Shown here: one piece after another, positions 9,485 through 63,169 of the stretch
How positions within the stretch are numbered: position 1 is the stretch's first letter
Layout of the letters: every line of letters starts with the position of its first letter
NCBI GenBank assembly: GCA_037892935.1
Contig: JAYXKI010000017.1
Location: 186,001 to 250,000 of the forward strand
Direction of reading: 5' to 3'
Length of the DNA stretch: 64,000 bases
DNA from: Phlebopus portentosus
Lineage: Eukaryota; Basidiomycota; Agaricomycetes; Boletales; Boletinellaceae
Notes under the pieces: model-generated
What the model was told of the DNA's origin: nothing
What the model saw: the letters and a program-made list of their open reading frames with translations, nothing else
The model's database searches: none
Made by a program: the position numbers and the translations under genes

Positions 9485-9644
9485 GGTGCCGATGATTGTC
9501 AGCATCAGCAGCAGCAACAATAGCAGAGAGGGGTCAGAGGCTCTCTCCAACCAGATGGAGGTGGATGCTGAAGCAGCGACAGGGGCTCCTGCCGTGGGCG
9601 GGATGTCGTGAGCCCCCAGCAGGCAGGAGGTCCCACCAGAGTTG

Positions 9645-39678: not shown

Positions 39679-40306
39679 CAACCCAGCTGCACACTTTAAT
39701 GCCTATGATGAGTTCTTTAACATTACCAAGAAGGAAGATGAGTCTCTCACCAATCTGGTGAGCAGGGTTGAGCTGGCATTACACAAGATCAGAAGCACTC
39801 ATTCTAGCACCCTCAAACTTGAGGAGTTTGAGAATTAGCTTGCGTCTGATTCGTGCTCTTTCTGAGGACTATGCCTCCTTTCACTCTGCAGTGCTCCTTA
39901 TGAAAGAATTCAAGTGGAATAACCTCAAGAAGGCATTTGCTCAAGAGCAGCAGAACTGTCAAGAGTGCATTCAGCTTCAGCCCCAGGCCATGTTTACATC
40001 TACTAGTAGTGCTGTAAAGCCTATCTTCTCTCAAGGTGTCACTTGCACCTTCTGTGGCATTCTTAAGTACACAGAGGAGAACTGCTATATGAAGCAGGCA
40101 GCCTCCAAGGATGCACATATCAGGGCTAAGAGAGACAGAGAAGAGAAGAGGAGGAAGAGCAGGAAGGGCCAGAAGGCCCATATTGCTCAATAAGATGAGT
40201 CTGCTGAATCTGCTAAATTTGCTAGCAATGCAAGTGCTCTTGACTATACCAATCCCTATTTACCTCTTATCCCAGATGCAGGAACTGACTGGATTGCTGA
40301 CACAAG

Positions 40307-40515
40307 TGTTAGGATTATGTAATCCTCAGCTTACTCAGACTATAAGTTATTCCCTGCTTAGTAGCAATATGGACCCTAAACTCATAGGCTGGTAATGCCA
40401 ATCTAAAGTGATCAACCTGGCTAGATAGCTTAGTGGTGAAAGTATCTGGTATATACTCAGAAGATCTTAGGTTCAATCTCTAGTCTGGCCGGTCACCTGT
40501 TTTCAACTCTTAATA
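40307..40515 (+). mobile_element. tRNA-bearing mini-element, copy 3
   Basis: 209 bp, TGTTAGGATTATGTAATCC...CTCTTAATA, flanked by ACAAG (40302-40306 and 40516-40520). It sits in the protease-coding region of a copia copy. It contains the cloverleaf at 40419-40491. Confidence 0.85.
40419..40491 (+). tRNA. tRNA-like cloverleaf inside mini-element copy 3
   Basis: 73 nt; acceptor GGCTAGA/TCTGGCC intact. Two T-stem pairs have become G-U (TTAGG/TCTAG) and the D stem has one G-U, so the fold is kept although bases changed. Box B reads GGTTCAATCTC. Probably a decayed repeat rather than a working tRNA gene. Confidence 0.5.
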
Positions 40516-44376: not shown

Positions 44377-47028
44377 TAGTTCACTGGTTGTAGTCATTCT
44401 TTGAGTGTCTACTTAAGTCTAGAGCCTTTCTCAGTTAGTAGTATCTGTAAAGTCTTAGCAGATCAACAGACCAGCACTGTCTTGCAGTAAATCTGTGTAT
44501 ACTTCAGTGACTATAGAAGACTGCACTGGTTGGTATTAATCTGTCACCTTCAGGCATAAATTTATTAGCACTCTCTCTCTTACTACTCCCTCACTGCTTA
44601 TTTTCTTTTGAGTGTATCATCTGTCCACTTTCATCCACACCTCATTCTCACCATCATATCTGAACCTGCAACCTCTGAGATGCTATCTACCATCATCAAG
44701 CTCAATAACAGTAATTACTCTATCTGAAAGCATAATATGTGTGCTGCACTTTAAGTTAAGAAGTTGTGGCATCTGATCTCTAGTCAGGAAGCTAAGTCTA
44801 GTACTCCAGCAGAGGCTGTCCAGCTCTGGAAAGAGAAGGCTGAGCAAGCTGCAGGCCTAATCTATTAGAGACTTGAGTATAGCATGTAGGTTATGGTGCA
44901 AGACTATATAGATGATCCAGTCAAGATGTGGACTAAGCTTCAGAAGATTAATGAGCAGGACAACCCAGCGGTATGCTTTAATGTCTATGATAAGTTCTTC
45001 AACATCACCGAGAAGGAAGATGAGTCCCTCACTAATCTGATGAGCAAAGTTAAGCTAGCATTGTACAAGATTAGAAGCACTTGTTCTAATTCCCTTAAAC
45101 TTGAGGAGTTTGAGAATGAGCTTATATGTGCATATCTGATTTGTGCTCTTCCTAAGAACTATGTCTTCTTTCGCTCTACAGTGCTCCTTATAAAGGAATT
45201 CAAGTAGAATAATCTTAAGGAGGCATTTGCTCAAGAGCAGTAAAACTGTCAAGAGCGCATTCAGCTTCAGCCCCAGGTCATATTTATATTTACTAGTAAA
45301 GCCTATCTTCTCTTAAGATATTACTTGCACCTTCTGTGGCATTTCTAAGCACATAGAGGAGAACTGTTACATAAAGCAGACAGCCTCCAAGGATGCACAT
45401 GTCAGAGCTAAGAGAAATAAAAAAAAGAAGAGAAGGAAGAGCAGAAAGAGCTAGAAGGCTCATGTTGCTCAACAAGATGAATCTGTTAAATCTGCTGAAT
45501 TTGCTAGTAATGCAAGTGCTCTTGACTACACCAATCTCTATTCACCTCTTATCCCAGATGCAAGAACTGACTGGATTGCTGACACAGGTGCCACTTGTCA
45601 CATAACTCCACATTGTCATTGGTTTATTAAATACTTAATAAATCACACCCCTATTTATTTGGTATTGGTATAGTACACTTTCAGCCTGTAGTTGTTAGCA
45701 AATCTAGACAGTTATTTGAATTTGAGCATATACTCTATGTTTCTAAACTTAGAAACAACTTCCTCTCAGTCCTGTATTTGACTCATTTCAAATCATATGT
45801 TGTCACCATTCACCATAATAAGATGCTTTTCTATCATCATGGAACAGTTCTCTTTACAGCAAACATCACCTCTAACAATGCAGCAACTCTCAATAGCCAT
45901 ATTGTCCTTACCATTACTTATGCTGCATTTACTAGCATCTGTTCACTTGATACTACACTTTAGCACAGGCACTTTGCACACCTCAATCATAGTAATGTCA
46001 ACAGGTTGATAACTGAGGAGTTAGTTAAGGGAATAGTTATTAAGTCCAAAAGCACTCCAGATTCTATCTGTGAACCTTGCATTACTAGCAAGCAGCACAG
46101 GTTTAATATCTTCAAACTTGCATCTTACAGAGCTTCTGGTCTCCTCTAATTAGTTCACTCTGATGTTCATAGTTCATTACCTATCTAGTCTAGACATGGC
46201 TTCAAATACTAGATCATCTTTATTGATGATTATAGCCACTACTGAGCTATTCTCCTATTGAAGAAGAAGAATGATGTATTTGCTACCTTCAAGCAATTTA
46301 AGACCTATGTAGAGAACTAGTTAGGAGTGAAGATTAAAGCCACTCGTGATGATAAAGGTGAAGAGTATGTGTTTAAGGAATAGGACCAGTTCTGTATTAC
46401 TGTAAGCATCCACAGACAGCACACTATCAGAGATGAACCTTATCAGAATGGTATTGCAGAGCGTGCTAACAGGACACTTGTAGAGGGCATCACTACTATG
46501 CTTAATGAAGCACATCTGCTCTCTAACTTCTGGTGGGATGCAGTGACAGCATTTGTACATGTACACAACCACTCTCCCACCTCTGCTGTGTCTGCCAGTA
46601 TACTCTATGAGCTCTGGTATGTCTCTCACTTGCATGTATTTAGATGCACCTCCTATGTGCTTGTGAAGAAAGATCAATATAAGCAGCTACAGTCTCACAC
46701 ACATAAATGTGTGTTTCTAGGCTACTCCTCTAATTATAAAGGCTGGCTATTTTAGAATCCACTTACCAGGAAGAAAGTCATTAGTGACTCTGCTCAATTT
46801 GATGAGAGAGTTTTCTCTGGTACATCTAAAAACCCAGTTGACTTAAGGGTGAATATACCTGTACAGACAAAAGATCTGCCCAAATAGAGAGGAGTAGAGG
46901 ATACTATTGATGTTCTGCCAGCTTCTCCTCCTCTACCTGCTCTTGTGCATCCAGTAGATTCTCCTATGCTTACACCTATACATACATCTAGTTCTCTATC
47001 TAATCTATTATCTAGTCCTCCTCTACAT

Positions 47029-47065
<37 letters not shown>

Positions 47066-47727
47066 CTCCTTCACCAGCTACTTATCTACCAAAGTGTAAA
47101 CATACTACTTTATCACTACTATTTAAGCAGATCTTAAAGAAATAAAGGCCTGCTTCTCCCTGATGACCAGATCTAATGTGGAGACATATTAGACATTACA
47201 CCACTGGCTAGTGAGATGTGGACTATGTTGGACAGTACCTTCTCAGACATGTGCCAAGCTCTCCTATTCCACTACAGTGCTTCAACTTCAACTTAACAGA
47301 GCTAACTACATCTGATACTGCACCTGACACTGTTTCTAATACTGACTTTGCAGCTCAGCCAGATATTGTAGAGCAGCCAGAGTAAGATGTTGAGATGGAC
47401 AGTAACTTACCTAATAAACTGGACATCATATTAGAAGAGAAGTTGCAAGCTAAAGCACTGATGTTTGCTGGCCTAATAGATTTTGGTGCCAATGCAGGAT
47501 TAGAGGACATCTATCTGTCTTATAAAGATGCTCTGAAATATGCATTTCAGTCATTCAATTGCTTTGAGTATGTGTTCTTTGCACAAAATGTGTAACATAT
47601 CAGTCCTAAACTCTATTAGTGGAAGGACATTAAAGAACACCCTGATGCAAACCTTTAAGAAAAGGCAGCTATAGAGGAATTCGTCAGTCTGATTGAGAAT
47701 AGTACTTTTGAGCCAGTTAGACTTCTG
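44377..47727 (+). pseudogene. gag-pol: Copia copy, plus strand: leader, gag to start of RT, heavily mutated
   Basis: Leader to 44655, gag start changed from ATG to ATA near 44656, gag with VQDYIDDPVKMW (44893 on), knuckle region (TFCGISKHIEENC) near 45330, protease (DTGATCH) near 45580, integrase to about 46750, linker (46800-47580), then the first part of RT up to 47727 where copia similarity ends. Stops are dense and of the CAG/CAA/TGG-to-stop type. The linker contains a run of 31 T at 47031-47061. Confidence 0.8.
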
Positions 47728-47848: not shown

Positions 47849-49687
47849 TGTAGACTATCAGACTCTCCTAGATAGGGACAAAGGCGGTGGCGGCGGCGTT
47901 CGACCACAGGGAGGCGATATCAAAGGTGTCGAGAGGAAAAAGGGGAGGTCCTACCAGATCTACAGACTACCTACAGGCTTTCAGAAGCAACACTCAGCTC
48001 AGATGCACAAGGATCTGGCCGTTAGGCAGATCCGCCGCGCCTTCGAATAACTCGCCGCAGCGATCTGGGCCTCGACGGCTGTATAGGGATCGCCGAGTCC
48101 GACTGAACCGGCGAAGGGGTCGCAGCGGCGGACTGGGTGTGGCGCCGGCGGAGGTTCGCACCAGTGCAATTCCGCCTGGTAGTCGGGGAGATGACGTCGG
48201 AACGACACAGAGAAGATGCGGGAGAGAGAGCGTCGACACCACTTGAAAGGGGAGTAGTGTCGGCGGTGGAACGATGTGGAGGCGGCGGAGGCGGCAAGAA
48301 GTGGGAGACTGGATTCAGTCGAAAAGGGGCGCCGGTGCCAATGGTAGCGGTGAACACAAGAAGAGTGACAGCTGCGTCGAGGCGCCGAGGAAGTATAACA
48401 GATGCCTAGAAGAGTGACGGCTGCATCGAGGCGTTGAGGAAGAATCACAAACGATCTGAACCGAGCGGCGGCGACGAAACACAAAAGGGGCGTCAGGCAC
48501 AGGGAGAAATCGAAGACCGCGGGATTGATTACTAGAGGAGTGATGGCTGCGTTGAGGCGTTGAGGAAGAATCACAAATGTTCAGGACCGAGCGGCGGCGG
48601 AGGTTAGAGAGAGAGGGACGGCGATGCAGATATGAGTGGGAAGTCCCCGGAGCGATTACTAGACGAGTGACAGCTGCGCAGAAGGGAGATGACCAGGGCG
48701 GCGAATGGGCTCAGCGGCTTCTATCCTGTGAGATCGGGGGCCACGCTGTCAGGACGGGATCGGCGAGGGCACGTGACCGGGAGTTCACCCGATCCGGCTG
48801 TCTGGTTCTCTGTATATACTGGTTTCTTGAAGGAGGCTTCTTTACTTGTGGTTGGTCTCTGGTAGCTGCGTTCTAGAGTGTATATCTGCTGCTTTTTAGG
48901 ATAGATACATGCTCTCTATATATACTATGAGTCCTTGATAAGAAATATCACTTAAAGCGGCGGGCGGCGAGGTGTGACAGGCATGCCGCAACGGTGGGGG
49001 CCGCCGCCGAGATGCGCCGCCAAGCCACCAAGACCTAGGGGCGCCCCAATCGGAACGGCGGAGTGCTGGTACGTCGTGTCGAACGTCGGGGCCATTCGGA
49101 TCGGTCAGGGCGCGCTCTATATGGTTCTGAAACGCCAAGGGTTCGAATAAAACTAAAAGGGGGAATATACGGATGGCCGCCGGGCATGCTACCGTGCTCG
49201 GCGTACAATGTGGGATGATAAGAATATGAAACAATCAACGAAATGGACCTGAGATTGGTTATCGTTCACCCAGCCAGCGCGGCGGCGGGCATACACCTCC
49301 GCGATGGCGCGATATACATCCGCCGCAGCGTGTCCAGCCGCCGTGCGAGCATTTCCGAAGCCCGGAGTCACCGGATTCGGCGGAACCGTTCTTGAGAGAG
49401 GCTGGAGAAGGGGAACTAGGATCTGGTCGAAGGGGGGACAAGGTGATCATAAGATAGGAGTGGAGGCGTCGCCGCCGGTTTGTATGGTCGGCGGCGGCGG
49501 CGGCGTGGGTGCTGTTCCCAGGCCGCCGAAGGTCCGGCGGCCGCTGAGCAGGCTGTATTATGGGTAACGGCGGCGAAGGCTGGTTTGCTGACAATAGTAC
49601 GCGGGGTGTCCTGGGTATGGCATAGGGGAGTACAGCCCTTACAGGCCTGTGCCGCTGGACCGGTACAGGTTAGTGCGGCGCACTACA
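47849..49687 (-). repeat. 3' LTR of the giant element
   Basis: 1,839 bp, GC-rich. On the minus strand a TATATATAGAG box lies near 48922-48912. It contains an internal imperfect repeat array (48357-48690). It differs from the 5' LTR by scattered transitions and a small indel near 48288. ORFs on it (for example 48577-48876) recur unchanged in the other LTR and are not accepted as genes. Confidence 0.9.
48357..48690. repeat. Imperfect repeats inside the giant LTR
   Basis: The motif AGAGTGACRGCTGCGTCGAGGCG, with GGAAGAATCACAAA and GAGCGGCGGCG further on, occurs about four times (near 48361, 48413, 48537 and 48664). The same array is in the other LTR near 61848-62170. It could be a set of regulatory or packaging repeats. 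Confidence 0.6.
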
Positions 49688-49697
49688 TCTCCTTCTG
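49688..49697 (-). promoter_or_regulatory. Polypurine tract of the giant element
   Basis: On the minus strand CAGAAGGAGA directly abuts the 3' LTR start (TGTAGTGCG). The short purine run at the LTR boundary is where plus-strand priming is expected. Upstream sequence to 49811 is a 3' untranslated spacer. Confidence 0.6.
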
Positions 49698-49811
49698 ACG
49701 AAGTAAAAAAATGATTAAAAAAAATGCTGGGTAGTGTAGGGGAGGTTTTTAGGCGAAGTTGAGCGGGGGTTGTGATGTAACTGGGTGGTATGTCTGTGAC
49801 TTGCTCCTGGA

Positions 49812-51353
49812 TTAGTCTTCGGTTGTGAGATCGATCATCGGCGGATCGTGGATTGGTGCGGCAGTGTGCGGTGGAGGGTTGGCTCTGTCTGCTGCATCTT
49901 GTTGAGGTACGTTGTTGAGGTATGGGTGATGTTCAATGGATTCCCGAAGCTCGGCAAGGTGCTCTTCGATGTCCTGGGCGGCTGCGATTGCTGAGAGCGA
50001 ATACTGTTGTGCTTGGAGTATAATGGTGATGACGTTGGCGGCGCAGTCGCGTATATCATCGTCGCCGCGCTGGTCGAAGAGGCATAAGACTTGGATTATG
50101 GCATTGTGAGATAGTTCTGAGGCGGCGTCGGAGTAAATGACGGCGTTTTCGAGTGCAATAGGCCCTTCTCTGAGGATGGTGAGGGGGGCATTGGGTAGTA
50201 CGCCATCGCCGAGAATTATGGGGATCGTAGTGAGGGCACCGCCGATGTGGAGCATTTCTCGGATGCGGCAAACAAGTGTCGCTTTGTTGGCAGGCGTCAG
50301 ATGGTGTCTGGCGAAGAGTTCGGAGATGATCTGAAGCATCGCGAGGACGTGTCTGGCGGGGAACGGCATCGCCGCAGGAAACGCGTCGGCGAGGAGGTCG
50401 CAAAATGATCCCCAGTTTCTGCCAGAGAGACGTGGGTCTTGACAGAGGAGTTGCTGGGCGTCCGGCGAGGCCCAAATGTACAGCAGGAAGATTAGAGTCG
50501 CCGTGTCGGGGCAGGGGTGCTGAAAACTGCGAAGGGCGGCAATGAGAATATTTGGTAGAGCAGTGTAATCAGGGTGCCATGGGTAGAGGAGCATGGGGTG
50601 CCCGGGAAGTGTGATTAATTGGGCGAAGTTGAAATCTAAGAGGTGTTGGGCATGGCGGGGGAAGTGGACTGGGTGCGGGACTTGGAGTAGTGGTGTCACC
50701 GGTGCGAATGGGAACGCTTCGGCGAGGCTGGGAACCAGCTGGGGCATGTTGTAAGGAGCGCCGATGGTATTCGTAATCTGTAGGGTAGATGTTTTGGGGG
50801 CGGCGAGTAGGTCGCCGACCGCTTTATATATTTTCGGCGAGTGTTTTCCGGGTTGGCCGGAGGGTATGACAGCTTTTGGCGAGGTGAAGTTGCCAGTATT
50901 ATAGTGTAGAGGCCAATATAGGCGAAAGCCGAAGTAGTGTTCTAATGGAAGGGGGCCTAGGCGAAGGTGTTTCGTGTAGGCGGATCGTCGGCGGGACGAG
51001 TAAGTGGGAGGGGAGGCTAGCGGCGAGACTGGTTCGCTGGTAGTTCGGGTATGGTGGCCTGTAGCGGCGTGGGGCAAAGCGATCTTCGAATGGGAGGGGG
51101 CCTGGGCGAAGGAGTTTCGTATAGGCGGGTCGTCTGCGGGACGAGTGAGTGGGATGGGAGGCTCGCGGCGAGGCTGGTTCGCCGGTAGTTCGGGTATGGT
51201 GGCCTGTAGCGGCGTGGGGCGAAGCGATCTTCGAATAGAAGGGGGCCTGGGCGAAGGAGTTTCGTATAGGCGGGGCGTCGGAGGGACGAGCTTCGATTTA
51301 GAAGGGAGTTCGGAAGTAAAGTTTAAATGGTTAATCATGGAAGGTGTCGTCAT
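49812..51353 (-). CDS. 513-aa accessory protein of the giant element, unknown function
   Basis: Sense-strand ORF between the antisense gene and the 3' LTR; first ATG at 51353, but the frame is open further up to a TGA near 51508 and might be joined to the ORF at 51522-51890 by splicing. The N-terminal third (about 1-150) is Pro/Ser/Arg-rich and encoded by three 145-bp tandem repeats read in three different frames. Residues about 190-450 look globular and helical (AEAFPFAPVTPLLQVP, LRSFQHPCPDTATLIF, LREGPIALENAVIYSD). The tail ends PMIDLTTED, which matches the SUMO-interacting motif form hydrophobic-Asp-Leu-Thr followed by acids. No retroviral enzyme motif. A broken homologue is at 7337-8949. 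It is intact here although pol is not. Confidence 0.6.
   Translation of the reverse strand: MTTPSMINHLNFTSELPSKSKLVPPTPRLYETPSPRPPSIRRSLRPTPLQATIPELPANQPRREPPIPLTRPADDPPIRNSFAQAPSHSKIALPHAATGHHTRTTSEPVSPLASPPTYSSRRRSAYTKHLRLGPLPLEHYFGFRLYWPLHYNTGNFTSPKAVIPSGQPGKHSPKIYKAVGDLLAAPKTSTLQITNTIGAPYNMPQLVPSLAEAFPFAPVTPLLQVPHPVHFPRHAQHLLDFNFAQLITLPGHPMLLYPWHPDYTALPNILIAALRSFQHPCPDTATLIFLLYIWASPDAQQLLCQDPRLSGRNWGSFCDLLADAFPAAMPFPARHVLAMLQIISELFARHHLTPANKATLVCRIREMLHIGGALTTIPIILGDGVLPNAPLTILREGPIALENAVIYSDAASELSHNAIIQVLCLFDQRGDDDIRDCAANVITIILQAQQYSLSAIAAAQDIEEHLAELRESIEHHPYLNNVPQQDAADRANPPPHTAAPIHDPPMIDLTTED
50945..51300 (-). repeat. 145-bp tandem repeat, three units
   Basis: GGGGGCC landmarks at 50951, 51096 and 51241 are exactly 145 bp apart; the units share CGAAGCGATCTTCGAAT and GGAGTTTCGTATAGGCGGG blocks. 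They lie within the N-terminal coding part of the 513-aa ORF. Copy B has four units. Confidence 0.85.
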
Positions 51354-51521
51354 ATCATGATCTTGATCTGGTACCAGATATGGATACAATGGCCTTGTAG
51401 TCAGGGGTAGTGGTACATCGGAAATACAATTCGGCGGGCTTTTGGCGGTCCGGGAACCAGTCGGGGATGCCTGGTAGTTAACTAGAGCGGTGTAGGTCGT
51501 AGCATATAGGTTGAGGATTCA

Positions 51522-51890
51522 TTAATGGGTGTAGGTACAGCTAGGGTAGGGTGTGCGGCGATATTTGATGATCGGCGGGGGGGGATCGGCGTAGAATGTT
51601 GTATCGGCCGGCTTGGCAGGGGTCTGGAAGGTTGGGGCTGTGTTGTGGCGAGGTTCGGCGGATTGTTCCGGCAAGTTTTGGAGGGGGGAGAGTCGCCGAG
51701 GGGTTTGTGGAATTTGAGTGGAGATTGCGGCGGAGCAGTGGGGAGGATTTGATAATTGATTGGTAAAAAGGGGGCGGGGAGGTCGTGTGTATGGAGGGCT
51801 GAAATCGAAGTTTGAATTGGGTGCGGCGAGGATATAGACGGCGGGGACTCGTGTCTGAGTTCCCCGTTTCTCTTTTTCTCTTTCCACCAT
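51522..51890 (-). CDS. 122-aa Pro/Ser-rich ORF divergent from the antisense gene
   Basis: ATG at 51890-51888 shares the palindromic CATG with the antisense gene's ATG at 51889. The product starts VEREKEKRGTQTRVP and is rich in Pro, Thr, Ser and His, without recognisable domains. The frame could also be taken from an ATG at 52142, but the extra 84 residues are only the reverse complement of antisense exon 1 (poly-Leu and poly-Ser-Pro from CAG and GGA repeats), so I prefer 51890. The frame is kept in copy B. It may be a first exon of the 513-aa ORF: GT at 51532 with an AG 57 bp later would join the frames, but the donor is not conserved in copy B. Confidence 0.4.
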   Translation of the reverse strand: MVEREKEKRGTQTRVPAVYILAAPNSNFDFSPPYTRPPRPLFTNQLSNPPHCSAAISTQIPQTPRRLSPLQNLPEQSAEPRHNTAPTFQTPAKPADTTFYADPPPPIIKYRRTPYPSCTYTH

Positions 51891-53518
51891 GGCGCCGACG
51901 ATTCTCAGCGTCAGTAGCAGCAGCGACAGCAGCAGCAACAACAGCAGGGAGGGGTCGGAGGCTCCCTCCGACCAGATGGAGGTGGACGCCGGGGCGGCAA
52001 CGGGGGCTCCTACTGCGGGCGGGATGTCGCGGGCCCCCAGCGGGCAAGAGGTCCCGCCGGAGTCGCAGGGGGAGATGGAGGAGGAGGGTGGGGAGGGGGG
52101 GGAGGGGGGGGAAGAACTGGACGCGGCCGTGTGGGCGGCCATTACGGTAGTGAGGGGGTGGATCGAGCGGGCCCGAAACGATGAGGGGCCCGCTGCTGAT
52201 GAGCTCGATGGGCTCTTGGTAAATTTGCGTTCCCTTGATAATAACCGTGTGAGCTGACGATCTGGTTTACTTTTTCAGAAGGGGCTTGGGGAGCGCTTCC
52301 CCGCGCTATCCGACGACGCGAGGGCTGAAAAGCCCGAATATTATTGCGCAGGGAGGTGGTTGGTGAACCGGGTGACGGTGGTGCGGATGGCCGCCGGGGA
52401 GGCTAAGGACGCCGCTGAGGCGTTGGACAAGGCCGCCCAGTCGGAGGTGAATCGCCTCCGACGCGTCGCGGAGAGGCTGGCCGAGCGCCGGGAGGAGGAG
52501 GCTCGTGAGGAGGCGAAGCAGAGCGCGGCGAAGGTGGCCGAGGAGGCGAAAGCCTCCTTCCTCAAGACGCTCGCCACCCTGCGAGTTGGGGGCCCGGAGG
52601 TCGTCGAGGCCTTCTGTAGGTCCTCAGGGCGCGATGAGGCGGGGAACCTGGTAAGTCGTTGTCTTGAATTTTGTTTTTTACTGTCTCTGATAATATCTTC
52701 TTAGGTCGCGGCGCCTAAAACGAGCACCAAAGCGAAGGTGCAGGCGCGTCCCGCGGCCAGGCCGGCGACGGGAAAGACAATTACTCTTCCTGGGTCGTCG
52801 ATCCCTGGTCTTGAGGTGGCGGGTTCGTCCAGCGAGACGCTCAAGGGGGAGAGTGGTCGAGTGACGCGAGGGGGACGCTTGGGGACGGTCACGGGAAAGA
52901 CCATTACTCTTGAAGTTGAGTCTGATGAGGGGTCAACGTGAGCGAAAAGGTCGAGTGGAAAGGAGGTATATGTCGATGTGTGTTTTATATCCTGGATCTT
53001 ATTCTTCACTGACATGTTTCGTTTCTAGGTGCCTCCCCTTCCGAAGCATGTACGTGAGCCGGTGGTCGAGCCGCCGGCGAAACGAGCAAGAGCGCCGGGA
53101 GCGGCGGCCTCGGGTGGGGGAAGGGCGAAAGAGGAGGCAACAGGAAGAAGGGACGGGGCGGTGAGTGCTGTCTTGAATTTTGTTCTCGACACTCTCTGAC
53201 TATAATATTCAGAGGGAGGAGGGGGGTTGGGAGTTCGAGAGGGTGGGGCGGCTCCCCAGGGGTCAGAGCCACTGCCTCCTCGAGTTCATGTCACCGGGGT
53301 GCGAGCGGTGCATCGGGCGTGGGGAGATGTGCACGAGGCGCCCGCCGGCGCTCCTGTGCCAGGCGTGCCGGGTATCGCACCAGTGGTGCGATATCTTGGA
53401 GTCGGATGTGACCTTCCTGGCGCAGCAGGAGGTCCTCGCTCTCCGCCGGCAGCTGGAGGGGATGGAGTCGACGTTGGCGGGAGAGAGTGCGGGTGGGGGG
53501 GTGGAGGAAAAGGCCTAG
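51889..53518 (+). pseudogene. Antisense five-exon gene: coiled-coil protein with Zn2Cys6-type motif (one nonsense codon)
   Basis: ATG in a perfect CCACCATGG context after a CT-rich tract. Exons 51889-52218, 52279-52650, 52705-52965, 53029-53160, 53213-53518; introns of 60, 54, 63 and 52 bp, each GT...AG with a CTGAC or CTGAT branch site, all phase 0. About 466 aa: Ser-rich acidic head, Gly/Glu-rich stretch, VWAAITVVRGWIERAR helix, Ala/Glu/Arg coiled coil (exon 2), basic exon 4 with PPAKRARAP (possible NLS), then CX2CX6CX8CX2CX6C (CERCIGRGEMC...CQACRVSHQWC) and a short coiled coil. That spacing fits fungal Zn(II)2Cys6 clusters. TGA at 52939-52941 replaces CGA of copy B and creates a GTGAGC donor-like site; TAG at 53516 replaces CAG of copy B. 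Probably nuclear; role in the element unknown. Confidence 0.8.
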
Positions 53519-53975
53519 GGTGAACGCCGTGGATAGGCGGCGAGCCAAACGACGCAAACGGCATCGGCTCGCAGTCTTCGGCGACCATGAAGCGCCCTTG
53601 GGCCGAAAAAAAATATAAAAAAAATAGGAAAAATATAAAAGTACAAAAATATTGTATTTTTCTTTTTCTTGTGTACTATAGTGGCTTGTAATAACAAGCC
53701 GAATGTTTTTCTTGTGAGGATGGTTCTTTGTGAGATCAGGGAATGTAAGATTGAGATGGGCTGGAGTGAAATAGGGAGGATAGGTGCCCTAAAAATAGCG
53801 CCGGGGCCGAAAGAATGACTTGAGTAAGGTGAAAATGTGGGAGGGGGTGACTCGGCGTCTCGCCGCAGTCGTTTGGGTGATGATTGGAGAGTGTGAAGAT
53901 AGCGGCGGGTCCGAATAGGTGACTTAGGGAATGTGTATATAAGGGAGAGGGTGATTATGAGGCTTCGGCGGATCT
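53519..53975. other. Spacer between the convergent antisense gene and pol
   Basis: No gene. It holds A-rich and T-rich runs near 53606-53665, reminiscent of a 3' untranslated region and polyadenylation signals for the plus-strand gene. The same stretch in copy B has a 17-A run near 12676. Confidence 0.5.
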
Positions 53976-56900
53976 TCATAAGTTGGATTCGGCGTCTAGG
54001 TCATCCGCCGCGGTCTCTTGTGCTAGGTTGTCGAGTTCCGGCGTGGATTTCTGAGTGAGGTCTTCGACTGAGTCGATGATTCGAGTGCGTGCGTGGTAAG
54101 GAATAACTCTGAATGCTGCGTAACGAAGTGCTGAAATGGCGCCGTTTGCTTCGGCGAGAACGTAGGATCCTCCTTTGGTTCGCTGCACGACAATCATGGG
54201 CCCTAGGTATTTCGGCTTTGTCTTCCTGTTCAGCTCGTTTTCTATCTGGGAGTTCCTGACCAGCACAAGTGAGCTGGGGGCGAAATTGTAATCCTTAATT
54301 GTTGCGGCGTGGGTTTTCTCGAAGTCCTGTATAGATTTGAAGCGTCCCTGGATGACAGATTCCTTGACTCGTTGGAGGTCCTCGGGTCGTTTCTGGAGTG
54401 CCCTTGCTCTCGCCGCGATGAGTTGTGCGTCGGACATCTTGGAGGTGACCGCCGGCGAGATGTACGTCTGTTCGGCGAGGTCGAAGGGGAGTACTGGTTC
54501 GACGCCGTGGGCCATAAAGTATGGGCTATAGCCTGTGCGGCGTTGGATCGTGATTCGTTCAGCCCAAATAGCGTGGTATATATGCTGGGACCACTTGTCT
54601 GGGCTTGCGTCGGCGAGCTTCATTAGGGTTTCTCTAAGGTCCCGGTGTCGCTGCTCAATGATTCTGTTGGCTCTTGAGTTGTACGGCGAGATTCGGATGT
54701 GCTGGACATTGTATTTGGCGAGAAGGCGGGGTAAGTCCTTGGAGAATGAGGCGCCGTTGTCGGTTACGATCTCCTCGACTCGTCCCCATCTTGACAAAAT
54801 ATCTTCGAAAACAAAGCGTGCTATCGAGGCGGCGTTATCTTTACGCAGCATTCGGAATTCGGGATATCCGGTGAGCGAGTCTTGGGCCTGAACGATATAC
54901 TTGAATCCGCCGGAGGGCGGCATTAACATCACGTCTATATGCACCCTGGAGAATAGCGGCGCGGGCGTCGGGCTTTGCGGCGTGGTATATATTTTCGTAA
55001 ACTGCCTCGTTTGGCATCGGTGGCAGGTTCTGATATACCATTTGATGTCCTGATGCATTCCTGGCCACCAGAATCGGTCTTGGATCGTTGTTCTGACAGA
55101 GAAGAAGCCTTTGTGGCCGAGTTCATCGTGGGCAGTTCTGATAATGGACATTCGGCGTTCCGGTGGAATAGCGAGAGCAGCGTGACCTTTGTCGTTCTTT
55201 CTGTAGAGTTCGCCGTGCTGTAGGAAGAAACGAGTGGCTCGGCGTACAAACTGTTTGAATTGGGCATCTGAAAGATCGGCGGGGCGGGATGGGGCGGCGA
55301 GAAATTTCTTGATACAATCGAGGTCTTTGAATCCTTTTTGGGAGGCTTTGTGATCGGGGAGTTGTACGGGTTCGCTGTTTGGGGTATAGGCCGTGTCGGA
55401 AAGGTCTTGGTTTAGGAAGGAGTATTGATGGTCGATCCATTCTTCGAAGCCTTTGTCTCGCGGCGGGTCGGTTTGTGCGGCGCCGCGGCGTGATAGGCCG
55501 TCTGGGCCGAGGTGTTTGGGCGCCGGCGTATGAATGATCGTGAAATTGAAAAGTAAGATGCCGGCGATCTATCTATTGATAGTGGCATTGGGTTGGAGGT
55601 CTGGGTTGTTAATCATGCCTTTAATATAGCTGGCGTCGACTTCGACAAAAAAGTGATCGATGCCGACGAGGTATATGCGCGCCTCATATAGAGCTCTGAA
55701 GAGGCCGAAGAGTTCTAGCTTCGCCTGGGAGTAGTTTCGTTCTCTGTTGTTCCAGGTTCCGGACATGAAACGAGATGGGACCCTTTCACCGTTTTCGCCG
55801 AGCTGTAACAAGATGGTGCCGTAGCCATGAACGGAGGAGTCTACACAGAAATGAACAGGTTGTCCTGACTCGTAGTCAATAGAATGAATGGCGCCGGAGG
55901 ATGCTACGGCGTGTTTTAGTAGATCCATAGATCGGCGGGTGTCTTCGTCGAATAGGAAGGGCTGGTCTTTGCAGAGTAGTTTGTTGAGACCGGCGGATAG
56001 TCTGGCGTAGTTCTTCACGAAGTGTCTAAGGACGCCGGCCGTACCTAAGAATGCCCGAATATCGTGGACATCCCGCGGCGGCGGCCAATCCATTATCGCC
56101 TTGACCCTGGATGCGTCTGGGACTCGGCCGGCGTAATTACAGGTGTGTCCTACAATGACTGCTTCTGGTGCAGCAATGATGAGTTTCTTACCCGAGACAG
56201 TGGCGCCGACTACTTTAAGGCGTTGGAGAACGCGGTTGACGTCGTTGAGGTGTTCCCAGATGAAGCGGCGGATGTTCGGGTTCCCCGGAATGCTTTCGTA
56301 TTTTCCGGCGGCGAGCTCGTAAGATACAGGAAGTATAAACTCGACTACCCGTGATGCGCGTCACGAGACCCTGACTTACCTCATTCAGTACCACAACACA
56401 ACACCTTAATTCTGCCTCTCATGTTGCACAAACATAGAATTAGACTCCACAGATATCTTCAGACTGAAATTAGCTACACATCTACAGTTTTAATTTTCGA
56501 AAATATTGGGAATTGGCTTCCCAATTATGGAAATAAAACCTTTTGTGCCAAACAACCCAGAATTTATTTTCCAGCCTTCTGGCAAAGTTTCGGAAAATTT
56601 TGAAATTCTCAAACCAAGATTTTTGCCGCTTCCGGCTGTTACTGGATGACTAATTTAATTCATATATAGTAACTTAAGATATTACTAAGTACAATTAAGT
56701 AAGCAATACTTCCAATGGGTCTCAAGAGTGCTTCAAACAATACAATAAGGGTGTAAACTGCATAGAGATTCTATATTCACCCTTCTAAGTGCCTCCACAT
56801 GAACTACAAGTGGTTTTCAAGCATTCGGAAAATTCAACCTTGAGATTTTTGCCACAGGGTCCTTCCTAATTGGGTTAGTACAGGGTCCATCAGGGTCATC

Positions 56901-58085
56901 AGGTCACGCGTGATGGGTAGTTGAGTTTATACTTCCTGTATCTTATCGGGATTTAGGGCCTTTTACAGGAATATCGTCGATGTATGGGATACAGACATGG
57001 GGTATCTCATCTTTGAGGACGAACATGACGTCAGCGTGCATAATTTGTTGCGAGTTGGTGTATCCCATAGGAATCGAGGTGAGGCGAAATGCGCCGAGAG
57101 GTGTTTGGAATGTTGTGAGGTCGTGGGATCGTACGTCGAGCTTTCTCTGGTCGAAGGCGACGAATAGATCGAGTGTGGTGTAGCAGGCATGGCCGCCGAA
57201 GGTCTCGGCGATGTGTTCTGTGGGGTAAGGGACGGAGGGGTCGCGTATGGAGACTTTGTTGAGTGGCTGGAGATCGTGTACAAGCCGAAGGGATTTTCCA
57301 TCCTTTTTAACGACGCAGAACCATCGGGAGCGGTAAGAGGAATTGGACGGCTCGTAGACGCCGGAGTTAATTTTGTCTTTGATTATGCGAACCACTTCGT
57401 TGAAGATCCCCGGCGGAATAGGGATGTTTTTCATTACCCACGGCGTATGGTCGACAGTAGGAATTAGAACCGGCGCGAAGTATTGATAGTCGAGGGAGCC
57501 CTTTTCTGTTTCGTCCCAAGCTAGGCCGTCTTCATATTGTAGAAGGGTCCAGTAGGCGAGGTTCTTTTCTTCCTCACTGAGGAAGCCAGTTGGGTCGATG
57601 TCTAGGGCGTCGAAGCGTTCTTGTGTAAAGCGGCGTCCTGGAATGAACTCCGGCGGATCGATAGGGAGCTTCGGTAGATCTGTGAGCGGCTGTGGGTGTG
57701 ATTTGCATATGATGCGGTAGTCCTCTGGAAGGGTCGCCGATATAGGTTTGGTTCATTGGGCGACCTTTTTGTACTTGTAGGCGTGCCCGGCCAGTTGAGC
57801 GGCCTTGGTATTAAGAGTGCTGTTGGAGCGGGGTATTCGGTTGCGTACGGGGAGTGATTCATCGTCGAAAATAGAGTTAATGAAGAAGGCTGGATGTTTT
57901 TGGGCTTTGTTCTGGGCTGTGAAACCCTTTTCGGCGGATTGATCAGAAAATGAGGTGGAGATATCTATGGTGCGGGGACTGAAGGCGATATTTACAGTCG
58001 CCGGGCCGTGATGGAGCACATATGCATCGGGTATGGTTGGGGGTATACGCCGCATATGTTCCGGCGGACGCCGCTGGGACATCAT
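53976..58085 (-). pseudogene. pol: Giant element pol: RT, RNase H, integrase; two stops and a MITE-like insertion
   Basis: ATG at 58085 overlaps the gag stop as ATGA. The frame runs with a TGA at 57755-57753 (CGA expected), then RT fingers and palm (VVKKDGKSLRLVHDLQPLN, TTLDLFVAFDQ) to the YIDD box (PYIDDIPVKGPKSR near 56970). There a 622-bp insertion (56322-56943) splits it; across it the RT thumb/connection continues (RAFLGTAGVLRHF). RNase H follows (VDSSVHGYG near 55840; VDASYIKGM near 55630), TAG at 55571-55569 (probably Trp), then integrase: HHCC zinc motif (HDELGHKG...CHRCQTRQ), catalytic D, D, E (HIDVMLMP, VTDNGASF, NRIIEQRH) and a C-terminal basic domain ending at 53976. No chromodomain seen. 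Element order RT-RH-IN identifies Ty3/gypsy. Confidence 0.9.
56322..56943. mobile_element. 622-bp MITE-like DNA element inserted in RT
   Basis: AT-rich insert in GC-rich DNA with inverted ends AGATACAGGAAGTATAAACTC (one mismatch in the first 29 bases) and TA on both sides (56320-56321, 56944-56945). Removing it with one TA restores the RT frame exactly (KSR-Y-ELAAG). No transposase ORF. TA duplication and short terminal inverted repeats fit a non-autonomous Tc1/mariner-type element. Confidence 0.85.
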
Positions 58086-60334
58086 TGTCTAGGGGGGCGC
58101 TGTTTTTCTGTCCCGGCGCCGCGCTGAATCGTCGGGATCGACATGGTTTCGTTCGTATCGGGATGAGTAAGGTATAGCGTCTGTTCGCCGTCGGCCTCGT
58201 CTATGACCTGCGCCCTAGTGTGTACGAAAAACGGCCGGCCTAATAGTAACTGAAAGGGGGCCTTTTCGACGACCTGGACTTGGACAACAATAGAGAAGGC
58301 GCCTATGGTGAGTCTGACGCGAGGGATGAGTCCCGCCGAGCGTGAGGTTTGTCTGTCGGCGGTTTCTACTGTGATTGCTTGGCTCATTATCGTCGGGGAC
58401 CCGAGGTCCTTCCATACCTCTTTTGGCACGGCGATAAATGTCGACCCCAAGTTGAGCAAAGCTTTTACTTCGAATTTATCATCGAGCCAGACCTCGATTT
58501 CGCAGAGGGGAATGTTCGGCGGGGCGACAGAAGGATCTTTGTCACCGAAGTTAACCGGCGAGGTGGGCCTCGGGATTGAGGCGTACATTGCCATCTTGTG
58601 ATCAGGATTTTCCCTAATTAGTTCTCGGCGCCCCGTGACAAATTCTTTACACTTCTTTCTGATTTCGGGAGAGGCGGCAAGCAGGCTTCGGATCGGCAGG
58701 GTGACTTCCGAGTCCAGAATCTTGTCGAAAACATTTGATACCGCGGCGTTATCGTATGCTGGTACGGTGGTTCGGTATTGTGGCTTCGGATCCGCCGCGT
58801 CGTCCCTGTGTGGCGCCGAGGGCATCGGCGGTGGGGCCGGGCGTAGTCCGAGTGGTTTCCCTTTCTTGCTGTTATCTCCCCATTTCGGGTTGGGGTCTCG
58901 AGGCGGCTTTCTGGTGGGGATTTCGATTCCATCGAAAACTTCTCTGGGGCCTGGCCGTCTTCCAGCGGCGGCGAAGGCATTCTGCAGTTGTTCGGTGGAT
59001 TCTTCTTGTTCAAAAAGGAGCGTGACTCCGTCGCAGGCATCGTCGTCTGGGGGGTCTTCTGGGGTGATAGCCTCGAAGTAGTTCGATTCCTGGATTCGCG
59101 GCGGCAGGCCGTTCGGCGGATTTGTATTGTAGGCTAAGGGAGGCGGTGCCCGGTTGAGGCCCTGGTACATAGATTCCTGTGATGGAGGGTGTGACTGATA
59201 CATAGATTGTTGAGTCGGTGGTTGTCCCTGATATGTAGGATCCTGCCTCGGCGGAGCGATCCTTGGCGGTGTGTCGGATACGGGCTGAATGGGGAGCTGG
59301 ACGCCAACTGGTGCGTAGTTTGGATTCTCTATGAAGAGCTTATTAATCCTATCCAGTACTGACATCCCCGGTTCTCCCTGAGGAAGTCGGCCATTGGAGG
59401 GGTACAAGTACCCTTTGGCATCGGCGAGCATGATTCCCCTCTGGATCAGGGAGATCTTGGTGGGACAGTCGTGGGTAGAGTGCGTTACACTGGCGCATAC
59501 GGCGCATTTTCCGTTAAATCTGGCTTGTCGGGGCTGCGGCGGGGCTCCTGCGGTTGGCGGCGGAGCGCGGCGGTTTGACTTCTCGGTGGCTTCACGGAGG
59601 GCGCGCATTTCCTGGATTAGGAGGGACACCCACGGTTCTTCTTGCTTGACCTGGGGTTGGTTGATGACTCTATAGGCCGGAGCACTGGGTTGTGGCGGCG
59701 GCGTGTATGTCGTAACTTGTGTATAGGTGGGCATGGCCGCTGTCGCCGCATACATCAGTGGTTGGTCGGCGGTTGTGAGGCAGCCGCCGGTTAGGATGCG
59801 TTCTAGTTCTCTTACAACTGTGTCGATGTCCCAGGGCACGCCGGTAGGGTGGTCGTGCTTGACAAACCGCAAATTAAGATCCAGCTCTCTGTTTAGCGTT
59901 GGGTGGAGGCCTTCTCTGAACATACGCTTCTGTTCGAACTCTGATAGCATGCCGGCGTCGATAAGATACGAGGAGACGGTGATAAAGTTCCTATGGTATT
60001 CGCCGAGAGCGGCGGTGTTCAGCATAATTTGGTTGCGGCTTATGTTAATAAGGTTGTGGAGGTCACCGAGTGTGTACTGGGTCATAGCGTTTGGGTAGTA
60101 CTTTAGGATAGCGTCTTTGAATGCCATAAAGTCGTTTCCTCTCGTTTCGGGCCTTTTGCACCATAGCTGATCGTCTTTAGCGTCGGCGTAGCATCTTGCC
60201 CAAGCGATCATTTGTGCATCTGTTAGGCCGGCGCTTCGTCCAAATAGCCGGACTCTGTTAAAGAAGATGGGGATTTCCGCGGGGTCACCGGAGGCGTTGA
60301 ACTTCAGCGCGCGGCGGTCTCCCGGGTAGGGCAT
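58082..60334 (-). CDS. gag: Giant element Gag-protease, 750 aa
   Basis: The first ATG is at 60334 (the frame also has an upstream GTG). Residues about 10-200 are a Gypsy-type capsid region (GDPAEIPIFFNRVRLFG, FKDAILKYYPNA, YHRNFITVSSYLIDAG). A CCHC knuckle lies at about 276-289 (CAVCASVTHSTHDC, CX2CX4HX4C). A long Pro/Gln-rich linker follows, with QSMYQ-type repeats. The aspartic protease lies near residues 610-740: the active-site segment reads ALLNLGSTFIAV, where Asp is expected before the loop, and the flap and LLLGRPFFV strand are present. Asn (AAC) would come from GAC by one transition at a CpG. The frame is complete and ends at TGA 58084-58082, overlapping pol's ATG (ATGA). Gag and protease without RT in one ORF is a less usual split. 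Confidence 0.85.
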   Translation of the reverse strand: MPYPGDRRALKFNASGDPAEIPIFFNRVRLFGRSAGLTDAQMIAWARCYADAKDDQLWCKRPETRGNDFMAFKDAILKYYPNAMTQYTLGDLHNLINISRNQIMLNTAALGEYHRNFITVSSYLIDAGMLSEFEQKRMFREGLHPTLNRELDLNLRFVKHDHPTGVPWDIDTVVRELERILTGGCLTTADQPLMYAATAAMPTYTQVTTYTPPPQPSAPAYRVINQPQVKQEEPWVSLLIQEMRALREATEKSNRRAPPPTAGAPPQPRQARFNGKCAVCASVTHSTHDCPTKISLIQRGIMLADAKGYLYPSNGRLPQGEPGMSVLDRINKLFIENPNYAPVGVQLPIQPVSDTPPRIAPPRQDPTYQGQPPTQQSMYQSHPPSQESMYQGLNRAPPPLAYNTNPPNGLPPRIQESNYFEAITPEDPPDDDACDGVTLLFEQEESTEQLQNAFAAAGRRPGPREVFDGIEIPTRKPPRDPNPKWGDNSKKGKPLGLRPAPPPMPSAPHRDDAADPKPQYRTTVPAYDNAAVSNVFDKILDSEVTLPIRSLLAASPEIRKKCKEFVTGRRELIRENPDHKMAMYASIPRPTSPVNFGDKDPSVAPPNIPLCEIEVWLDDKFEVKALLNLGSTFIAVPKEVWKDLGSPTIMSQAITVETADRQTSRSAGLIPRVRLTIGAFSIVVQVQVVEKAPFQLLLGRPFFVHTRAQVIDEADGEQTLYLTHPDTNETMSIPTIQRGAGTEKQRPPRQ

Positions 60335-60366
60335 TGTAGCTCCTGGCACTGGTGGGTTGGGACCAC

Positions 60367-61338
60367 TTAATGGATGGGTATCTGGGTCACTGAGGTCTGG
60401 AAGAGGGGGAAAGGCGCCCGTGGGGGGTGGTGCTGGTGCGGCATAGGCTGGTGCGGCGGGGGACGGCTGTTGGGGGGCGGCGGGGTCGATCCTGAGGCTG
60501 TGGGGGGCGCGGCGGAAATGCCGGTATGGGTGCTGGTCATTGTTGGTATCGAGGCCGTCTTAGGAGGTGTACTGGGGGTGGGTGGTTGGGCGTTGTCAAT
60601 TGGGGAGAGCCGCGGCCTCTGAGCTGGGGTCAGCGGCGTAAGAGGGGGGGGTGGGGAGAGCCTCGCCGATCGCTCTTCTTCGACGGGGGATAGTGGAGAG
60701 TCGGGGGTGATTGCGTGGCCGTGTACGAGGGAGTCGGGGACGTAAAGGTTGTCGTCCTCCTGTTCTTCTGCGGCGGAGTATAACTGTAGGCCGGTGCGGC
60801 GGTGGAGATCTGGGGGGTTGTCTATGTCGGAGAAGAGGTCGGTTTTGATGGGGCCGGTGGCTGGAGGTTCCTGGAGGGATATTGACAGGTCCTCGATGCC
60901 GCCGGGGACACGAACGTGAGTACTGGGGCGAATTTCGGATTCGCGGAGGTCTTTAGGAACGTGGATGAAACGAGGGGGAATTATAGGCGATATAGGGCGT
61001 GCGGCGGCGGTGCTTGCGCTTTCGCCAGGCGGTGGGTTGCGTGTAAAAGGAGTGATAGATGCTCTTCTGGGACGCCGGGTGGGTGGGTCGTCTGCGGCGA
61101 TGGACGCGCGTCGACGGTTCGGCGCGGACGGAGATCTGGGTGCGGTGGGACGTGGTTCTTCTGTTCGGCCTCTTGTAAAGAGTGTGGAATAATGGTATGG
61201 TTGGCCGGCGGTTGTAGTTGAGGCTGTTTGACTGTTTTCCGCCCTTCTTTGCAGCCTTAGTGAGTATCGTGTGCCCTTGGAAGGGCCTGAGATCGGTTGG
61301 AACGACACCTTTTTACCTCCCTCGCGGTGGGCTCCAAA
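60367..61338 (-). CDS. Pro/Ser-rich frame upstream of gag (no ATG)
   Basis: An open frame of more than 320 codons runs from the LTR/PBS junction to TAA at 60367, 33 bp before the gag ATG and in a different frame. No ATG is found at its beginning; the frame continues into the LTR, where the first candidate is GTG. The product is rich in Pro, Ser, Thr, Arg (RRASITPFTRNPPPGES, SPPPPLTPLTPAQRPRLSP) and appears disordered. It could be translated from a spliced or non-ATG start, be an N-terminal extension of Gag after frameshift, or be a structured leader that is merely open. No domain recognised. Confidence 0.4.
   Translation of the reverse strand, partial: FGAHREGGKKVSFQPISGPSKGTRYSLRLQRRAENSQTASTTTAGQPYHYSTLFTRGRTEEPRPTAPRSPSAPNRRRASIAADDPPTRRPRRASITPFTRNPPPGESASTAAARPISPIIPPRFIHVPKDLRESEIRPSTHVRVPGGIEDLSISLQEPPATGPIKTDLFSDIDNPPDLHRRTGLQLYSAAEEQEDDNLYVPDSLVHGHAITPDSPLSPVEEERSARLSPPPPLTPLTPAQRPRLSPIDNAQPPTPSTPPKTASIPTMTSTHTGISAAPPTASGSTPPPPNSRPPPHQPMPHQHHPPRAPFPLFQTSVTQIPIH
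61320..61336 (-). promoter_or_regulatory. Primer binding site of the giant element
   Basis: Minus strand TGGAGCCCACCGCGAGG, three T after the 5' LTR end (61340). It begins with TGG as expected for a tRNA 3' CCA end and closely matches element A's PBS. Confidence 0.75.
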
Positions 61339-61339
61339 A

Positions 61340-63169
61340 TGTAGACTATCAGACTCTCCTAGATAGGGACAAAGGCGGCGGCGGCGGCGTTCGACCACAG
61401 GGAGGCGATGTCAAAGGTGTCGAGAGGAAAAAGGGGAGGTCCTACCAGATCTACAGACTACCTACAGGCTTTCAGAAGCGACACTCAGCTCAGATGCACA
61501 AGGATCTGGCCGTTAGGCAGATCCGCTGCGCCTTCGAATAACTCGCCGCGGCGATCCAGGCCTCGACGGCTGTATAGGGATCGCCGAGTCCAACTGAACC
61601 GGCGAAGGGGTCGCAGCAGCGGACTGGGTGCGGCGCCGGCGGAGGTTCGCACCAGTGCAATTCCGCCTGGTAGTCGGGGAGATGACGTCGGAACGACACA
61701 GAGAAGATGCGGGAGAGAGAGCGTCGACACCACTTGAAAGGGGAGTAGTGTCGGCGGTGGAACGACGCGGAGGCGGCGAGAAGTGGGAGACTGGATTCAG
61801 TCGAAAAGGGGCGCCGGTGCTGACGGTAGCGGCGAACACAAGAAGAGTGACAGCTGCGTCGAGGCGTCGAGGAAGTATAACAGATGCCTAGAAGAGTGAC
61901 AGCTGCATCGAGGCGTTGAGGAAGAATCACAAACGATCTGAACCGAGCGGCGGTGACGAAACACAAAAGGGGCGTCAGGCGCAGGGAGAAATCGAAGACC
62001 GCGGGATTGATTACTAGAGGAGTGACGGCTGCGTCGAGGCGTTGAGGAAGAATCACAAATGTTCAGGACTGAGCGGCGGCGGAGGTTAGAGAGAGAGGGA
62101 CGGCGATGCAGATATGAGTGGGAAGTCCCCGGAGCGATTACTAGACAAGTGACAGCTGCGCAGAAGGGAGATGACCAGGGCGGCGAATGGGCTCAGCGGC
62201 TTCTATCCTGTGAGATCGGGGGCCACGCCGTCAGGACGGGATCGGCGAGGGCACGTGACCGGGAGTTCACCCGATCCGGCTGTCTGGTTCTCTGTATATA
62301 CTGGTTTCTTGAAGGAGGCTTCTTTACTTGTGGTTGGTCTCTGGTAGCTGCGTTCTAGAGTGTATATCTGCTGCTTTTTAGGATAGATACATGCTCTCTA
62401 TATATACTATGAGTCCTTGATAAGAAATATCACTTAAAGCGGCGGGCGGCGAGGTGTGACAGGCACGCCGCAACGGTGGGGGCCGCCGCCGAGATGCGCC
62501 GCCAAGCCACCAAGACCTAGGGGCGCCCCAATCGGAATGGCGGAGTGCTGGTACGTCGTGTCGAACGTCGGGGCCATTCGGATCGGTCAGGGCGCGCTCT
62601 ATATGGTTCTGAAACGCCAAGGGTTCGAATAAAACTAAAAGGGGGAATATACGGACGGCCGCCGGGCGCACTACCGCACTCGGCGTACAATGTGGGATGA
62701 TAAGAATATGAAACAATCAACGAAATAGACCTGAGATTGGTTATCGTTCACCCAGCCAGCGCGGCGGCGGGCATACACCTCCGCGATGGCGCGATATACA
62801 TCCGCCGCAGCATGTCCAGCCGCCGTGCGAGCATTTCCGAAGCCCGGAGTCACCGGATTCGGTGGAACCGTTCTTGAGAGAGGCTGGAGAAGGGGAACTA
62901 GGATCTGGTCGAAGGGGGGACAAGGTGATCATAAGATAGGAGTGGAGGCGTCACCGCCGGTTCGTATGGTCGGCGGCGGCGGCAGCGTGGGTGCTGTTCC
63001 CAGGCCGCCGAAGGTCCGGCGGCCGCTGAGCAGGCTGTATTATGGGTAACGGCGGCGAAGGCTGGTTTGCTGACAATAGTACGCGGGGTGTCCTGGGTAT
63101 GGCATAGGGGAGTACAGCCCTTACAGGCCTGTGCCGCTGGACCGGTACAGGTTAGTGCGGCGCACTACA
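61340..63169 (-). repeat. 5' LTR of the giant element
   Basis: 1,830 bp, TGTAGTGCGCC...GATAGTCTACA on the minus strand. Collinear with 47849-49687, 9 bp shorter. The right border is followed by GCGA (63170-63173). Confidence 0.9.

Follow-up and report, generated by a model that had tools for sequence, protein, structure and literature searches.

Three Gypsy families of Phlebopus portentosus carry an antisense, intron-containing gene with a Zn2Cys6-like cysteine cluster

We analyzed a stretch of 64,000 nucleotides (nt) from the genome of Phlebopus portentosus (assembly GCA_037892935.1, contig JAYXKI010000017.1, positions 186,001 to 250,000; hereafter the window), in which a Gypsy-type long terminal repeat (LTR) retrotransposon bears, on the strand opposite to its gag and pol genes, a five-exon gene whose product ends in a cluster of six cysteines. 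This antisense gene exists and is no isolated case: an antisense gene with introns is a feature of the whole family to which the window element belongs, and of three Gypsy families in this genome, the other two of which we call p43 and p44. As to what the gene is, our judgement leans towards an accessory gene of a Gypsy lineage that is expressed as a spliced antisense transcript and encodes a nuclear, DNA-binding dimer of the Zn2Cys6 type, probably with a regulatory function.

The window gene is read from the plus strand and has the following parts.

51889 to 52218, plus strand: exon 1, 330 nt, with the ATG in CCACCATGG (splice model, family alignment)
52279 to 52650, plus strand: exon 2, 372 nt, coiled-coil-like as judged by eye (splice model, family alignment)
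52705 to 52965, plus strand: exon 3, 261 nt, with a stop codon inside it at 52939-52941 in the window copy (splice model)
53029 to 53160, plus strand: exon 4, 132 nt, with basic stretches resembling a nuclear localization signal as judged by eye (splice model)
53213 to 53536, plus strand: exon 5, with the Cys6 cluster and a premature TAG at 53516-53518 in the window copy (splice model, family alignment)
53300 to 53389, plus strand: Cys6 cluster, C-x2-C-x6-C-x8-C-x2-C-x6-C (family alignment)

Its four introns measure 60, 54, 63, and 52 nt, are all of the GT-AG type and lie in phase 0. The gene sits between the integrase region and the 3' LTR, tail to tail with the integrase. A first-pass annotation had placed the gene at 51889 to 53518; the exons and introns that it proposed stand, but the window copy is not intact, given the internal stop in exon 3 and a terminal TAG that proved premature. 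The usual stop codon of the family lies at 53534-53536, and the frame of the window copy ends 18 nt short of it.

The element that hosts the gene reads in the opposite direction.

47849 to 63169, minus strand: whole Gypsy-type LTR element, 15,321 bp, with the target-site duplication GCGA on both sides (LTR alignment and flanks)
61340 to 63169, minus strand: 5' LTR, 1830 bp, TG..CA ends (LTR alignment)
47849 to 49687, minus strand: 3' LTR, 1839 bp, TG..CA ends (LTR alignment)
60370 to 61338, minus strand: 5'-most long open frame, gag-like from its position alone, without a Pfam match
58085 to 60559, minus strand: open frame with DUF4100 and an aspartyl protease (Pfam)
56946 to 57752, minus strand: reverse transcriptase piece, RVT_1 (Pfam, E 8.7e-6, 26 bits, under the cut-off of 29.6)
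55572 to 56360, minus strand: RNase H piece of pol (Pfam)
53979 to 55568, minus strand: integrase, H2C2 and rve (Pfam)
49688 to 51888, plus strand: candidate promoter region between the 3' LTR and the start of the antisense gene

Two LTRs with TG..CA ends, a 4-bp target-site duplication (GCGA) and minus-strand frames in the order protease, reverse transcriptase, RNase H, and integrase (Pfam, with RVT_1 below its cut-off) identify it as a member of the Gypsy (Ty3) group. With the domains on the minus strand and both LTRs and the duplication located, the five plus-strand exons do lie inside an element whose own genes run on the other strand, as the first-pass annotation had read them. Of 1830 positions aligned between the two LTRs, 39 are mismatched, 27 of them by differences of the CpG type, and the pol frame is disrupted in this copy. 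A short way upstream of the start of the antisense gene we observed a 145-bp tandem repeat (2.4 copies, 50940-51290); tandem repeats are described in the equivalent region of plant Retand elements in the accessible parts of PMC11963269. The repeat is spanned by a sense frame of 568 codons (49815-51518, minus strand) that lies between the antisense gene and the 3' LTR and is without a Pfam match. Adjoining the element are two direct repeats (40014-42547 and 45296-47616), 83-88% alike and about 5 kb apart.

When the genome (38.4 Mb in 23 contigs) was searched with the antisense gene of the window, 39 matches were obtained, 26 of them near-complete, the window copy included. The GT..AG borders are retained at 104 of 104 introns in these 26 copies, in keeping with the standard signals noted at the outset, and all six cysteine codons encode cysteine in every one of them. 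An open frame is present in six of the 26; the rest carry frameshifts, stop codons or, in one copy, no ATG. Splicing before reverse transcription normally removes introns from sequence that is carried in the sense orientation. Here, introns can survive retrotransposition because the gene and the genomic RNA are of opposite sense, as the first-pass annotation had argued: that RNA would bear the complement of the gene, with introns that read CT..AC and would go unrecognized, and these would be copied into each new insertion. The same placement recurs throughout the family and in all three families.

Sequence variation inside the window family consists nearly entirely of CpG decay, and a dN/dS comparison (nonsynonymous against synonymous substitution rates) between its copies therefore has no power and gives no selection signal of its own. 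In exon 1, a G-rich run at 52083-52112 varies in length, with frameshifts in L010 and L013 (by eye), and some of these length changes may be assembly errors. Copy B (about 9483-12609), the exon lengths of which had been adduced as support for the gene model, turned out to belong to the same family and to be old and worn by CpG decay, so that its equal exon lengths are not independent support and it was ruled out as an independent line. The donor of its intron 1 is lost (by eye), and its exon 1 is in two parts, separated by some 1.5 kb of inserted sequence (9643-11151). The ends of this insert resemble TGTTAGAA..TTCTAACA, and 5 bp (AGTTG) appear to be duplicated, both as judged by eye; it is perhaps a solo LTR or a small non-autonomous element. 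Beside copy B lies a Copia-type element (13560-17657, minus strand) in which domains of gag, integrase, and reverse transcriptase are present.

Antisense genes also occur beyond the window family. A genome-wide integrase search gave 501 candidates, and 106 places were scored. Thirty-two of these are at least 92% identical to the window integrase and represent the window family, with the antisense gene present within 3 kb at 31 of the 32; the other 74 stand at 43-53% identity (most rows at about 50-52%). Downstream of the integrase, nine of these more distant loci contain long antisense frames. The p44 gene (locus L044) consists of exons of 261, 375, and 1560 nt, separated by phase-0 introns of 52 and 47 nt, and encodes 731 amino acids; the p43 gene (locus L043) has exons of 246, 351, and 1206 nt, phase-0 introns of 64 and 54 nt, and a product of 600 amino acids. 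At six p44 and seven p43 loci, every intron covered by the alignments is bordered by GT-AG (intron 2 only at one p44 locus). Query positions 1-519 are covered by 40 rows, and a count by eye gave full-length, stop-free last exons of p44 in 20 of them. Both p43 and p44 proteins contain poly-Q, poly-N, poly-D, and poly-S runs, some of which differ in length between copies and species.

Taken together, 102 of the 106 scored integrases have one of the three genes in antisense orientation at most 3 kb downstream (window family, 31; p43, 18; p44, 53), which is the layout of an antisense additional open reading frame (aORF) between pol and the 3' LTR, the comparison class aORF-3R. One further integrase has the gene in sense, and three have no gene. 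The median gap between integrase and gene is 461 bp in the window family, 645 bp in p43, and 535 bp in p44. Counted from the genes, 110 of 151 matches have a scored integrase on the opposite strand no more than 6 kb away (window family, 34/38; p44, 58/78; p43, 18/35), while 41 have no scored integrase nearby; the homologues hence do not lie mainly outside LTR elements, as would befit a single capture. A host regulator gene captured once and carried along as passive cargo strikes us as very improbable. Its introns are of the ordinary host type, and capture in antisense orientation would preserve them; yet the genes are diverged in three families and accompany nearly all integrase copies, and no clear host gene was met among the 151 matches, the 41 without a nearby integrase not having been inspected individually.

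The three proteins are related to different degrees. A blastp comparison of p43 with p44 (6e-10; 31% identity over 115 amino acids) covers the Cys6 cluster and the coil that follows it, and a six-frame control with the last exons favors the antisense frame (4e-5) over the best sense frame (0.024); these results establish the homology of p43 and p44. The window protein matches p43 at 0.045 in the Cys6 part alone, and at 0.95 when only the last exons are compared. Homology of the window gene to p43 and p44 is not proven by these scores, but it is likely because the genes share their place, orientation, phase-0 introns, and Cys6 ending. Searches with the three antisense proteins (the best 7994 and the best 7988 candidates were scored in two of them, 5127 in the third) yielded nine protein matches (P0001-P0009), all from Sanghuangporus species; no relatives were found beyond this genus in a search that needs shared 5-letter words, and none was encoded by 600 pattern-matched stretches of viral contigs. 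The NCBI protein P0005 of S. weigelae has 731 amino acids, is 79% identical to p44 and agrees with our splice model by eye, while P0008 of S. baumii is 64% identical over 61% of p44 and covers the Cys6 region. In these relatives of p44, the Cys6 cluster and the basic region are nearly identical and the linkers vary. P0003 of S. vaninii aligns with the window protein (54% over 70%), and its exon 2/3 and 3/4 joins coincide with those of the window gene (by eye). The Cys6 part is absent from the P0003 model and from P0002 of S. sanghuang (another frame at the end), and P0007 lacks part of the cluster; these incomplete clusters are faults of prediction or decay. Genes of this kind thus enter mushroom gene sets as hypothetical proteins (P0001-P0009), although they are retrotransposon-borne here, a warning for annotation.

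The p43 family provided a measure of coding constraint. In each of 12 diverged copies, the ratio of nonsynonymous to synonymous rates (N/S) at non-CpG sites is below 1 (0.31-0.91; 0.31-0.36 in the three best covered), in tblastn alignments that lean to the protein frame and in part overlap (L061). For transitions only, pooled from blastn alignments of nine of the 12 loci (without L058, L061, and L064), N/S is 0.61 in the gene frame, with a p of 9e-6 that is too small because the p43 copies are related. The other two frames of the gene strand gave 0.97 and 2.48, and the three frames of the opposite strand 0.87, 2.52, and 0.56. Each of the three exons has its differences between copies spread unevenly over the codon positions (p 7e-6, 0.01, and 4e-9, respectively); exon 1 has few at position 2 alone, while its positions 1 and 3 hardly differ from each other. 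These data demonstrate constraint on p43 at the protein level.

The low value of 0.56 bears on the least probable of the accounts that we weighed, namely that there is no antisense gene and that a GC-rich overlapping frame merely mimics one, the true coding frame being an env-like sense frame. Sense frames of 342 codons in p43 and of about 233 in p44 do overlap the last exon. However, in p43 these long frames lie in the frame with an N/S of 0.87, whereas the frame with 0.56 is the one whose third positions coincide with those of the gene, and the stops that interrupt it within the last exon, seven in p43 and 17 in p44, lead us to conclude that it is not coding. The antisense frame, moreover, is open over all 600 and 731 codons, gives the stronger match between families, and is the protein that public annotation records in other species. 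The same data weigh on the proposal that the antisense transcript acts as an RNA, through double-stranded RNA, silencing or interference with gag-pol, its reading frame being a by-product. Such a role would suit the convergent, tail-to-tail layout with pol, and antisense transcripts are said to be able to form double-stranded RNA in the available text of PMC7264820. We nevertheless consider it improbable in view of the conserved splice sites, the N/S below 1 in all 12 p43 copies, the bias over codon positions in each p43 exon, and six cysteines that are invariant across the proteins of three families that otherwise share little.

Zn2Cys6 clusters follow the spacing rule C-x2-C-x6-C-x5-12-C-x2-C-x6-8-C. 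All three antisense proteins have a Cys6 cluster at their C-terminal end that fits this rule (window, x2,x6,x8,x2,x6; p43, x2,x6,x7,x2,x7; p44, x2,x6,x7,x2,x6), and the six cysteines do not vary among six aligned proteins that represent the three families (window exon 5, P0001, P0009, P0006, P0005, and P0008; without P0002, P0003, P0004, and P0007). Seven Cys6 segments share the six cysteines and a proline in the loop. A Foldseek search against the PDB (E up to 10) gave seven matches, all to Zn2Cys6 domains and each weak: HAP1 (twice), PUT3, Pho7 (twice), PPR1, and GAL4. The structure model of P0005, with a mean pLDDT confidence score of 41, was left out of this fold search. A profile run against PDB sequences found Pho7 (E 0.008), an ethanol regulon factor (0.046), and PUT3 (0.11); a sequence search of PDB chains with the C-terminal part of p44 had no match up to E 10, and hhalign gave a probability of 2.8, which carries no information, for the Cys6 alignment against one single GAL4 segment. 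PF00172 was not among the Pfam matches to the three antisense proteins up to E 5, nothing exceeded the cut-off, and no bZIP was among the matches. Because there is no PF00172 profile match, we call the cluster Zn2Cys6-like and not a member of PF00172. The spacing and the weak fold matches agree with the possible DNA-binding Cys6 motif that the first-pass annotation had noted. As a hint at an own binding site, CGG/CCG enrichment was seen in the LTR alone (z 3.2 among 24 tests); this is no firm hint and was not used.

Basic stretches flank the Cys6 cluster (by eye), a feature that would equally suit a real protein that is not a transcription regulator and instead aids steps after reverse transcription, for instance by bringing the pre-integration complex into the nucleus or by selecting the chromatin to be targeted; the zinc cluster and the basic stretch would then tether it to nucleic acid or chromatin. 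Roles of this type are discussed for plant antisense proteins in the accessible text of PMC7264820, and the near-constant company of the gene and the integrase would agree with them. All of the fold matches and most of the profile matches, though weak, are to DNA-binding domains of sequence-specific transcription factors; we regard this account as rather unlikely.

If, as we prefer, the protein is a transcription regulator, its promoter would lie either within the 3' LTR or in the stretch that separates this LTR from the gene, and transcription would run antisense to gag-pol. The transcript would be spliced and then translated into a nuclear protein, whose C-terminal Zn2Cys6-type zinc cluster and coiled coil would bind DNA as a dimer. 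Its most likely job would be to tune the transcription of the element through feedback on the LTR, or else to act in silencing or on other host loci. Feedback on the LTR is our leading guess because HBZ of HTLV-1, a nuclear factor, damps its own 5' LTR (accessible parts of PMC10186651) and because regulatory roles have been proposed for plant antisense genes (PMC11963269, PMC7264820, as far as their available text goes). In its fullest form, which we put forward as possible rather than probable, this proposal holds that a spliced antisense gene for a zinc-cluster transcription factor is a defining gene of an old Gypsy lineage, which uses it to control its own LTRs; the factor would be a fungal equivalent of HBZ with an independent origin. 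Three families with an antisense multi-exon gene, a similar zinc-cluster ending, and the same position point to a stable way round intron loss, and lend themselves to a clear test of whether fungal elements encode their own transcription control. If the proposal is true, antisense placement would give retroelements in general a means of possessing regulator genes with several exons.

HBZ differs from the proteins described here in being a bZIP and not a zinc-cluster protein, in belonging to an exogenous animal retrovirus, and in having most of its coding sequence in one exon; the comparison concerns how it works and not its domain. HBZ, like APH-2/3/4, is the product of an antisense gene, and HBZ transcripts are spliced (PMC10186651, in the parts available). 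Among plant Gypsy elements, antisense aORFs are known from maize Grande (gene23), rice RIRE2, and Silene Retand (TRP28), according to accessible parts of PMC7264820 and PMC11963269. We saw no protein family in common with these, the present proteins being without a Pfam match; the word intron occurs zero times in the main texts of the two papers, and their accessible parts report no zinc cluster. The first-pass annotation knew of no fungal Gypsy element with such an antisense gene, a view that does not hold: Boty of Botrytis cinerea has an extra antisense gene, brtn, credited to Zhao et al. (2011) in what is available of PMC7264820, PMC8365987, and PMC4227169. As in the present elements, brtn is described as lying antisense to gag-pol between pol and the 3' LTR of a fungal LTR element (PMC7264820, accessible part); Boty differs in its ascomycete host. 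With the Zn2Cys6 factors (GAL4, HAP1, PUT3, PPR1, and Pho7; PF00172), the present proteins share the cysteine spacing, the loop proline, and a helix after the cluster, but they differ in having no PF00172 match, in the position of the cluster near the C-terminus, and in being borne by a retrotransposon. In a literature search mostly without subscription papers, we found no fungal LTR element for which a zinc-cluster gene that is both antisense and spliced has been described. Hence, while extra antisense genes in Gypsy elements are already known, the multi-exon, spliced version with a zinc cluster, present in several families, appears to be new.
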